NCBI GenBank assembly: GCA_030532895.1
Contig: JAUNKF010000034.1
Coordinates: forward strand, 1 to 36,443
DNA from: Lautropia sp.
Lineage (GTDB): Bacteria > Pseudomonadota > Gammaproteobacteria > Burkholderiales > Burkholderiaceae_E
Length of the DNA stretch: 36,443 nt
Reading direction: 5' to 3'
In this document: positions 1-34,005 of the stretch, in pieces
Position numbering within the stretch: position 1 is the stretch's first letter
Layout of the letters: each line of letters begins with the position of its first letter
Notes under the pieces: generated by a model
Told to the model about the DNA's origin: nothing
The model's database searches: none
What the model saw: the letters and a program-made list of their open reading frames with translations, nothing else
Position numbers and translations under genes: made by a program

Positions 1-2
1 TC

Positions 3-539
3 GCTGAACTTCGACTTCTTCATAGAACTTCTCCTTGGAAAAATTCTACTTCTGAGATCGCTGTATTTCAGGGGGGATTACCCCACCAGGACGCTGCGGC
101 CATACTTCAAGTCAGAGTGCCGCTATATTCAGGCGGGGGACTGGCTGCACAAGAGCGGGCCAGTATGGCCGTCCTGCACCAGACGGAAAGCGACCTTGAA
201 TCTGCTCGACGCACAGCCGTACAGGAAGTTCGTGAAAACTACTTCAGTTTTCTCAGCAACTCTCAACAAACGCTCGCACTTCAAGCAGCCATTCGTTCAA
301 GCGCACTTTCACTGGATTCCAATAGTACAGCTTACCAGGCGGGGCTTCGCATGAACGTCGATGTTCTGAACGCACAGCAGCAACTTTTTGACATCAGGCA
401 GAAGCTGAGTAAAGCACGATATGATGCGCTCTTGAGTCAGTTGCGCCTGAAGGCAGCTATCGGCCAACTATCCAGTGCCGATCTCGCTTTGATCGATGAA
501 GAGCTTGACCTCGCTCAAGGTGAACCCCTCGAACTCTGA
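3..539 (+). CDS. TolC-family outer membrane efflux protein, C-terminal part (5' end outside window)
   Basis: The reading frame is open from the window edge to the TGA at 537-539, so this is the C-terminal ~178 residues of a larger protein. A GTG at 117 is internal and not a credible start. The fragment contains VPLYSGGG, the family's conserved turn at the start of the second helical repeat, followed by a long amphipathic helix and the YQAGLRMNVDVLNAQQQLF segment typical of TolC proteins paired with type I secretion systems. TolC proteins form trimeric outer-membrane channels for ABC or RND exporters. The sequence is clearly more AT-rich, with looser codon choice than the genes to its right, which suggests transfer or a different genomic origin. 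It converges on the minus-strand chimeric gene ending at 610. Family assignment is good; the transported substrate cannot be told. Confidence 0.8.
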   Translation, partial: AELRLLHRTSPWKNSTSEIAVFQGGLPHQDAAAILQVRVPLYSGGGLAAQERASMAVLHQTESDLESARRTAVQEVRENYFSFLSNSQQTLALQAAIRSSALSLDSNSTAYQAGLRMNVDVLNAQQQLFDIRQKLSKARYDALLSQLRLKAAIGQLSSADLALIDEELDLAQGEPLEL

Positions 540-609
540 CTAACACGATCGAAAAAGACTCTTCGTGGGCCGGCATACCGTCAGTTAAATATCGACAAAT
601 CTCTTCCCC

Positions 610-2448
610 CTACCACCGACCACCTAGCGCCGCCAGCAGCCCCGCATGCACCGCCAACCGCTCGGCTTGCAGGTTCAGCAGTGCCTCCTGACTGTTGATG
701 GTGAGCCGTTGGGCCGTGGCCAGCTCCAGGTAATTGACCAGACCACTCCGATAACGGTTGCGCACGACACGCTCGGAGGCTTCGGCCAATGACACCAGCC
801 GCGCCTGGTCGGCCAGTTGCAGGGCCAGCGTGCGATGGGCGAGCAAATAATCCTCGATCTCCTGCACGGCTGTCAGTACCTGCTGCCGGTAGGCGGCCAC
901 CGTTTCGTCATAAGCCGCCTCCTGCCGCGACAGCTCGGCACGTCTCGTCCCGCCATCGAAAATGACGGCGGCCAACTGGCTGCCGAGTGACCAGGTACGC
1001 AAGGGCGACGCGATCAGATCCGAGAGCGTATCGGCGCCCAGTGCCAACGCGCTGTTGAAACTCAGATCCGGCAGCCATGCACCCTGCGCAATACCCAGGT
1101 TGGCATTGGCAGCCGCCACCCGCCGCTCAGCCGCGCGCACGTCAGGGCGACGGCGCAGCAGGTCGATGGAGAGTGTTTCGGGCAATTCAGGCACGGCCGG
1201 CATCGTGCCATCGGCAACCTGCGCGGGCTGATTCATGCGCGATGTAGCGCGACCAGCGTCCTCTGCTTCGCGCCCTGCCCCCGCCGCAGCGACCGTGCCG
1301 GCTCCATTGGCATTGGCATTGGCATTGGTGCCAGCCAGACAGGCTTCGTTTGCCCTGTCGATCAGCCGGACATCTTCCTGCATCACCACCGTATCGGCAC
1401 CCATCGGCATCGGCGCACCGGTCATGATGCGCTGGGCGTGCCCGGCGGCCAGGGTTGGTGCAGGTGCGTCGCCGGCCAGTGTGCGGCCGGCCACCTGCAA
1501 GCGGGTCTCGCCGGTTGGGCACAGGTCGGCATGGCGTAGGGCATAGCCGTCCATCGCCGCGTTGTCTTGCGAGGGCACGTCGAAAGGGGCGTCGATCGTG
1601 CTGGCGAGGATGCGACCCACGGCATCGGCGAGGCAAACCGTTTCGGCTTCAACGGGGGTCGGCACGTATCGGGCGATCAGCGCACGGGCCAGCGCGACGG
1701 GTACGGCTTGAGGATTGAAACCGGCTTCGGCCGCTTCCAGTGCGATCAGGCTGACCGGGGTTTGAGCGGTCTGGCCGTGTTGAGTGTTTTCAGGCTTTTC
1801 AGCGGGGTTGGAGGACGCAGCGCTCATGATGATGCGGGTTGCTTCCTGCCAGGCATCTGGCGTGTTGATGTTGAAGAAAGCGGTGTCGTCCTCGAAGGGC
1901 ACGACGAGCGCGTCGTGTTGCTGGTAAAAGGCGCGGACACGGTGCTGGCTTTGGTTGAGTGACTCGCTCAGCCCAGGCAACAGCGAGCGGTGCATGACGG
2001 CCACGAGCGGGTGTTCCTGGCCGTTGGCATCGACGGCAAAGGCGAGTGGTCGCGCTGCCTGCCGAGCTGCGGCGAGCAGGCGAGTGGCCCAGCCGGGTGG
2101 CAGAAAGGGGGTGTCACAGGCGGTGACGGCGAGCCAGTCGGTCTTGGTGGCGAGCAGGCCCGCGTGGATGCCGGCCAGTGGGCCGGGCTGATCGGGAAAA
2201 TGATCGGGGATCACGGGGTAGCCCCATCGCCGATACCAGGCCAGATGGCGATTGGCACTGATCAGCAGACGGCTGACCTGTGGGGCCAGGGTTCGGGTCT
2301 GCCACAGCACGAGTGGATGGCTGCCCAGCCGCAGCAAGCCCTTGTCGATGGCATGGCCGCCCGTTTGCATCCGGCGCGCGGCACCACCGGCCAGGACGAG
2401 GCCGGTCAGGGGGACAATGGCGGGTGGAGATTGGCTGAACGTGCTCAT
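610..2448 (-). CDS. Chimeric ORF: MobA - truncated MoeA - C-terminal half of an RND outer membrane factor
   Basis: One uninterrupted frame of 612 codons joins three unrelated parts. Residues ~1-207 are MobA, the Mo-cofactor guanylyltransferase, with the nucleotide motif LAGGAARRM near residue 20 and DKGL after it. Residues ~208-364 match the first ~120 residues of MoeA (molybdopterin molybdotransferase), including DNAAMDGYA, MTGAPMP and ADTVVMQE. The rest of MoeA, with its Mo-insertion domain, is absent. Residues ~416-612 are the C-terminal repeat of an OprM/NodT-type efflux channel (RRRPDVRAAERR, then FDGGTRRAEL) with no signal peptide. The linker (~365-415) is Ala/Asn/Gly-rich. The start chosen is the ATG at 2448; an ATG at 2517, 15 bases after the moaA stop, is also possible. 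Neither has a good ribosome site. MobA may still work; the MoeA and channel parts look non-functional. It could be a genomic deletion fusion or an assembly join. Confidence 0.8.
   Translation of the reverse strand: MSTFSQSPPAIVPLTGLVLAGGAARRMQTGGHAIDKGLLRLGSHPLVLWQTRTLAPQVSRLLISANRHLAWYRRWGYPVIPDHFPDQPGPLAGIHAGLLATKTDWLAVTACDTPFLPPGWATRLLAAARQAARPLAFAVDANGQEHPLVAVMHRSLLPGLSESLNQSQHRVRAFYQQHDALVVPFEDDTAFFNINTPDAWQEATRIIMSAASSNPAEKPENTQHGQTAQTPVSLIALEAAEAGFNPQAVPVALARALIARYVPTPVEAETVCLADAVGRILASTIDAPFDVPSQDNAAMDGYALRHADLCPTGETRLQVAGRTLAGDAPAPTLAAGHAQRIMTGAPMPMGADTVVMQEDVRLIDRANEACLAGTNANANANGAGTVAAAGAGREAEDAGRATSRMNQPAQVADGTMPAVPELPETLSIDLLRRRPDVRAAERRVAAANANLGIAQGAWLPDLSFNSALALGADTLSDLIASPLRTWSLGSQLAAVIFDGGTRRAELSRQEAAYDETVAAYRQQVLTAVQEIEDYLLAHRTLALQLADQARLVSLAEASERVVRNRYRSGLVNYLELATAQRLTINSQEALLNLQAERLAVHAGLLAALGGRW
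1305..1328. repeat. Four tandem copies of hexamer CATTGG in the chimera linker
   Basis: CATTGG is repeated four times without change. On the coding (minus) strand it encodes alternating Asn-Ala. It lies between the last recognisable MoeA residues (~1357) and the first recognisable outer-membrane-factor residues (~1203), so it marks or neighbours the join. Confidence 0.9.
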
Positions 2449-2531
2449 GCTCGTGTTGGCGACGGCCTGCCGTGCAGGCTCCGTGCCGGGACTGTTTGGG
2501 CAGGGGTACGGCGGCATTGGCGTGTCGGGGG

Positions 2532-3680
2532 TCAGCCGCCGATATAGCTCATCTCGATCCGGCGTGGTGCCGTGCCAACGGAACTGGCGCCCTCTGCACT
2601 GCGCAGCTCGGAGTAGCGATCCTGTCGTCCTTGCCAGAGGGCGCTCAGGGCAGTGGCCATCTCGGCCGTGCTTCGGCCGCCGCGCAACAAGGCTTTGAGG
2701 TCGTAGCCGCTGTGGGCGAACAGGCAGGTATAGAGCTGCCCTTCGGTGGACAGCCGCAGCCGGGTGCAATCACCGCAGAAGGGTTGGGTGACGGAGGAGA
2801 TGAGACCAATTTCACCGGCTCCATCCTTGAAGCGCCAGCGTGAGGCCACTTCACCGGGGTAGTTGGCTTCGAGCGCTTCGAGCGGGTGAACAGCCTGGAT
2901 GCGCGCGAGTACCTCACGGCTTGGCAGTACCTCGTCCATTCGCCAGCCATTGGTGGCGCCCACGTCCATGTATTCGATGAAGCGCAGGATATGGCCGCTG
3001 CCGCGGAAGTGCTCCACCATCGGCAGAATGTCGCCATCGTTGAGGCCGCGCCGCACCACCATGTTGACCTTGATGGCGCTGAATCCGGCGACTCGGGCAG
3101 CCTCGATGCCATCGAGGACGCGGGCAACCGGGTAATCGGCATCGTTCAACCGTCGGAAGAGCGCGTCGTCCAGGCTGTCGAGGCTGACCGTGATCCGGCT
3201 CAGGCCGGCCGCCTTGAGGGCCTCGGCCTTGCGAGCCAGCAATGAGCCGTTGGTGGTCAGCGTCAGCTCGACGGCTTGGCCATCGGGACGACGCAGACGG
3301 GCCAGCTGTTCGATCAGTCTTTCGATGTTGCGACGCAATAGCGGCTCGCCCCCCGTGAGGCGGATCTTTCTCACACCAAGCGCCACGAAGAGAGCGGCCA
3401 GCTCGGCGATTTCCTCGAAACTCAGCAGCGCGTCGTGGGGCAGGAAGGGATGATCCTTGCCGAACACTTCGCGTGGCATGCAGTACGAACATCGGAAATT
3501 GCAGCGGTCGGTGACGGAAATCCTCAGATCGTGAAGTGGCCGCCCCAGGGCGTCTGGCAGGGCACCGTCAGCAAGCGGCATCGAGGCCAGCACGTCGGGC
3601 AGGGGCGCAGCGACGGGCGCACCGGGCCGACGTGCGGGATGGCCACGAACATCGAGGATGGGAATCACACGTTCCGACAT
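2532..3680 (-). CDS. moaA: GTP 3',8-cyclase MoaA
   Basis: MoaA is a radical-SAM enzyme that, with MoaC, converts GTP to cyclic pyranopterin monophosphate, the first step of molybdenum cofactor synthesis. The 382-residue product has the radical-SAM cluster motif C60-x3-C64-x2-C67 (CNFRCSYC), the SAM-binding TGGEPLLR, the NGSLL strand, and the second cluster's FCGDC plus a distal Cys (QLYTC). It ends in Gly-Gly, the conserved MoaA tail that reaches into the active site. About 45 residues precede the core, including a Pro/Ala-rich stretch. The gene leads a minus-strand unit with the mobA-moeA chimera 83 bases downstream (15 if the upstream ATG is used). No Shine-Dalgarno is visible before the ATG at 3680; translation may rely on a short leader. 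Catalytic and cluster residues look intact. Confidence 0.95.
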
Positions 3681-33975: not shown

Positions 33976-34005
33976 TGAAGCTCGGTGAAGCTCGGTGAAG
34001 CTCGG
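33976..34005. repeat. Three tandem copies of TGAAGCTCGG
   Basis: Three exact ten-base units between pgsA and tRNA-Cys. They lie outside any gene, and ten bases is close to one helical turn. Confidence 0.9.

Follow-up and report, generated by a model that had tools for sequence, protein, structure and literature searches.

The three-part reading frame in the window

The window analysed here, a stretch of 36,443 nucleotides from Lautropia sp., corresponds to contig C66 over its full length; the draft genome to which it belongs comprises 3,642,343 bases in 74 contigs and is 98.27% complete. A stop-free frame extends over positions 610–2769 on the minus strand and comprises 719 codons from a TTG, or 612 aa if counted from an ATG at position 2448. 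Pfam analysis placed NTP_transf_3 (MobA) on frame residues 16–179 (E 2.3e-37), MoeA_N on residues 250–382 (profile positions 2–130 of 160; E 1e-28), and OEP on residues 431–609 (E 8.3e-17). Among NCBIfam models, molyb_mobA matched the frame above its cut-off. The model outer_NodT (TIGR01845) matched over its positions 249–459 of 460, with a score below the whole-protein cut-off, as expected because only half a channel is present. The features, in the reading direction of the frame, are:

1804..2448, minus strand: MobA part (215 aa as cut) of a natural mobA-moeA gene; NTP_transf_3, molyb_mobA
1329..1803, minus strand: linker between MobA and MoeA, then the N-terminal part of MoeA (domains I/II, incomplete) as far as the hexamer array; MoeA_N 2–130 of 160
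1305..1328: exact hexamer array, 4.0 copies (CATTGG on the plus strand, GCCAAT on the minus strand), very probably the site of a chimeric join; Tandem Repeats Finder
613..1304, minus strand: linker and C-terminal half of a NodT/OprM-type outer membrane channel; OEP, outer_NodT 249–459 of 460
610..612, minus strand: stop codon of the channel frame

A first-pass annotation of this DNA had described a single frame passing from MobA into MoeA and then into an OprM/NodT channel without a stop, and frame translation, Pfam and NCBIfam all confirmed it. Its finer placement of the parts was revised. The annotation ended MoeA at ADTVVMQE; likeness to the corresponding frame of the relative G006 continues to about QEDVRLI, and the join is now placed in the hexamer array (Tandem Repeats Finder). 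The losses that it listed were seen again: the MoeA part is without the remaining domains within the window frame, Pfam showing MoeA_N 2–130 of 160 only, and the channel part is without its first repeat, the N-terminal half with the first OEP repeat being absent from the frame. Identity to G006 was 67% for the MobA part, 77% over 115 aa for the MoeA N-terminal part, and 87% over 181 aa for the C-terminal half of the channel.

The annotation had also allowed that a fusion of MobA to MoeA could be natural, and in this it was right. MobA and both MoeA parts lie in one frame in four of the seven genus genomes examined (G004, G005, G006 and G008) and are separate genes in the others (G001, G002 and G007). 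Outside the genus, one of 16 loci had a single MobA-MoeA frame (G016, same family). Judged from these sequences, the first two parts of the window frame belong together and the channel part does not. A literature search with the phrase MobA-MoeA found no paper. In the literature on MobA, MoeA, fusion and the molybdenum cofactor, no such fusion was apparent from the title or the start of the abstract among the matches listed. The passages of PMC6147048 that were available name NuoG and contain no MobA-MoeA fusion.

The missing halves and the genes of relatives

A search of the genome with MoeA_N gave three places: C46, where the gene is complete, the window, and the end of contig C12 (profile 119–160). 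The C12 end carries a frame of 315 aa with an open 5′ side, in which Pfam finds MoeA_N 119–160, MoCF_biosynth and MoeA_C; this moeA remainder reaches C12:18540, the final base of the contig. The corresponding OEP search yielded 11 matches, among them one on C61 that belongs to a 321-aa N-terminal half of a channel running off the contig start. The C61 half ends LLGKTPASFKLPVA; the corresponding residues of the G006 frame are LLGKAPALFRLPEA, followed by the G006 linker and then by VPELPETL, which is common to the window channel half and the G006 channel frame. The parts of moeA and of the channel gene that the window frame lacks are thus both found elsewhere in this assembly, each at a contig terminus: the C12 end for moeA, the C61 start for the channel. 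Assignment of the C12 part to the second moeA was considered and rejected: the C46 copy is whole, and is 35% identical to the C12 part. The terminal 55-mers of C12 and C61 were not found within the window, and sensitive blastn revealed no convincing DNA common to window 1–2800 and C12 10000–18540 (best E 0.24).

Both genes were then compared within a genus set of nine genomes, the window's own included. The C12 moeA part had a match in all eight other genomes. In seven of them the best match (44–78% identity) lay at the mobA-moeA place; G003, a genome 80% complete, gave only a 42% match, at another place. The N-terminal channel part was matched in seven of the eight (not in G005), and in all seven it adjoins the C-terminal part in one open frame, with equal length. 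Both loci were compared in six relatives (G001, G002, G004, G006, G007 and G008). All six have the gene order moaA, mobA, moeA-N, moeA-C, PpiC, GspE; in G001, G002 and G007 an intervening stretch of 1.3–3 kb separates PpiC from GspE. In all six the two channel parts are together, and the mobA-moeA and channel genes are not neighbours. The symporter 5′ of the C61 channel half also precedes the channel in four of the six; it does not in G008, and G006 was compared over ~1.5 kb before the gene.

These results bear on a possible deletion running from within moeA to midway through the channel gene. The annotation had proposed such an event, with a loss of about 0.9 kb of moeA plus the intervening DNA, and a frame that crosses the join without a stop would agree with it. 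The moeA remainder and the channel half at contig termini contradict it: the assembly contains both supposedly lost halves, flanked as in relatives, and the two genes are not adjacent in the six relatives compared. We regard a deletion as extremely improbable.

A search with the whole frame gave matches in 60 of 60 relatives. Comparison with relatives, which the annotation had proposed, brought up no three-part fusion in these 60: among the matches listed, none spanned the join (start below residue 369 and end within 431–609), and alignments starting in MobA or MoeA ended at or before residue 422. In the window's own genome, C14 gave a loose 33% match to residues 332–612; its frame has two OEP repeats and is thus a whole channel. 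A functional three-part fusion protein evolved in this lineage would account for the open frame of 612 aa. Such a protein would consist of a channel lacking its N-terminal half and first OEP repeat and a MoeA lacking its remaining domains, and the join would happen to fall in a hexamer array with the missing halves at contig ends. Since these points and the absence of a spanning match among those listed all argue against it, we find this explanation scarcely credible.

Tandem arrays and the origin of the join

The join consists of an exact 24-base GCCAAT array (100% match; Tandem Repeats Finder), over which the coding strand reads GGC ACC AAT GCC AAT GCC AAT GCC AAT GGA GCC. A scan showed it to be the sole exact array in the window with a period of 5–9 and at least three copies; a further exact array, of period 10 and three copies, was found at 33976–34005 (Tandem Repeats Finder). 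Read in gene direction, C12 starts GCCAGTGCCAGTGCC (GCC AGT GCC AGT GCC GAT) and C61 ends GTTGCCAA (CCC GTT GCC AA), each in the phase of the window array. The C12 break falls inside GCCAGT, a one-base variant of the array unit GCCAAT, and GCCARTGCCARTGCC has two occurrences in the whole assembly, one at the window join and the other at the C12 end. The C61 break is at the first five or six bases of a GCCAAT unit; because no more of the unit is kept there, the array of the channel gene itself is one that we infer. What is seen of a repeat shared by the two genes is the 24-nt window array, the GCCAGT variant at C12 and the unit start at C61; neither gene shows its array whole. The moeA and channel linkers of the six relatives contain no such array, so that the GCCAAT array is visible whole nowhere. 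In G006, a 27-nt hexamer array built of a different unit lies in the N-terminal part of the channel gene.

We surveyed contig ends across the assembly as a control, using 400 bases from each end of the 74 contigs; eight ends with N were left out, which gave 140 ends. An end was scored as paired if it had an exact terminal overlap of at least 15 bases, and a tract was defined as an exact terminal tandem of period 4–12 and at least 14 nt. Exact overlaps paired 74 of the 140 ends, and the overlap was 55 bases in 68 of the 74 entries, a pattern suggestive of a de Bruijn assembler run at k=55. The other 66 ends were unpaired; a few of them share a 55-mer slightly inside (C66 start with C20 start, C27 end with C32 end). 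Terminal tandem tracts were found at 14 of the 66 unpaired ends vs none of the 74 paired ends, and at 0.09% of 14000 random positions 100–310 bases inside the same contig ends. Ten of the 14 tracts had period 6, three had period 7, and one had period 4. The C12 end is among the 14; the C61 start is unpaired and holds too little of the unit to count. Because 52 of the 66 unpaired ends are without such a tract, arrays account for part of the breaks only. Certain units recur at separate ends (GGGTTC at C26 and C43, and its complement, 12 nt, at C51), and this is the condition under which arrays of different genes can be confused. The many stops at short tandem arrays indicate that arrays impassable to short-read assembly are probably numerous in this genome.

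We conclude that the three-part frame is, with high probability, an assembly artefact, a chimeric contig join and not a real fusion gene. The annotation had given an assembly join as its second option; with the missing halves at the C12 and C61 ends and an array at the join, this is the best-supported one. The mobA-moeA gene and the unrelated channel gene, both presumably whole in the cell, would each carry an in-frame GCCAAT array within a linker of low conservation. With short reads, a de Bruijn assembler would be unable to distinguish the two arrays and would have joined moeA-N to channel-C across the array, leaving moeA-C (C12 end) and channel-N (C61 start) as dangling contig ends. Such a false join would stay in frame because the unit is six bases long and has the same phase in both genes. 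Since the 24-nt array falls short of the k of 55 suggested by the overlaps, a graph using only k=55 would depend on reads that span it; we assume that the join was inherited from a smaller k or from a gap-closing step.

The same four fragments would be produced by a real inversion or reciprocal exchange between GCCAAT arrays, possibly in part of the population, giving moeA-N::channel-C and channel-N::moeA-C. Mutual orientation was scored in the three of three genus genomes with both genes found on one contig (G001, G002 and G007). The genes there face each other ~215–268 kb apart, so that one inversion would yield exactly these two fusions, in frame, and the dangling C61 and C12 ends could be the unassembled reciprocal join. 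Against this, channel-N::moeA-C was not assembled and both of its ends dangle; both genes are whole in the genus relatives examined; and contigs also break off at other short tandem arrays, for which no rearrangement need be invoked. We therefore consider a real inversion unlikely. Slightly less likely again is that the arrays are the ends of an invertible segment of ~215–270 kb (spacing as in relatives) that may switch in the population. If this were true, inversion would exchange the C-terminal part of a cofactor enzyme for that of an outer membrane channel, and vice versa, with the frame kept.

Several further observations were made on arrays and contig ends. Contig ends that terminate in a tract include those of C7, C26, C33, C37, C42, C43, C53 and C54. 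Many end arrays are stop-free within the 400 bases examined, which is weak evidence in G+C-rich DNA; long arrays may lie inside genes, and heptamers may act in on/off switching. Both termini of C12 fall in hexamer arrays (GGGGTT at the start; GGCACT, the complement of GCCAGT, at the end), and the contig carries an exact 8-base array of three copies at 897–920. A heptamer array, AACAGCC in three exact copies, was present in one of the nine genus genomes (G006). Repeats of 6–9 nt are described as rarely reported in prokaryotes in the part of PMC4692102 that was available.

The start of the window presents a separate case. Positions 28–82 are identical to the terminal 55 bases of C20, a repeat edge, and the C-terminal part of a TolC-type channel lies next to this edge (window 1–539). 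This part is 58–61% identical to frames of 471–479 aa in G001, G002 and G007; none of the 11 genomic OEP matches corresponds to its N-terminal half. The outermost window bases read like the start of a putative IS transposase, and an insertion in this channel gene is possible.

Molybdenum cofactor genes and comparison with known systems

The annotation had forecast that the strain probably could not finish the molybdenum cofactor unless another moeA existed, and had proposed a genome search for a complete moeA, moaC, moaE and molybdoenzymes. The second moeA, on C46, is complete with all three Pfam domains; moaE lies ~1 kb from it, and moaC is on C33. Matches to the molybdopterin oxidoreductase family were found above cut-off at six places in the genome. 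This family also includes molybdenum-independent NuoG-type proteins, so not all six matches need be molybdoenzymes. A defect in the molybdenum cofactor is not supported by this predicted gene content. One match, at C22:1671–3119, lies in a 1028-aa frame with a single TGA; selenocysteine formate dehydrogenases carry such an in-frame TGA.

An in-frame chimera produced by an assembler, as we very probably have here, is ordinary as a finding. It serves as a warning that six-base arrays in coding linkers can let false joins pass an open-frame check as a fusion protein. Short-read assembly errors at tandem repeats (PMC6868369) are similar in that breaks and a false join occur at short tandem arrays; the main text of that paper does not contain the word chimeric. 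Unlike the cases described there, the join in the window keeps the frame, the unit being a multiple of three, and mimics a fusion gene. The NCBIfam families PRK14491 (MobB-MoeA) and PRK14489 (MobA-MobB) likewise have two late-step molybdenum cofactor proteins fused; in contrast to these, the natural pair here is MobA-MoeA, and the third part is unrelated to either. In comparison with the NodT-type outer membrane factor TIGR01845, the window has positions 249–459 of 460, and the N-terminal half is on another contig (C61).
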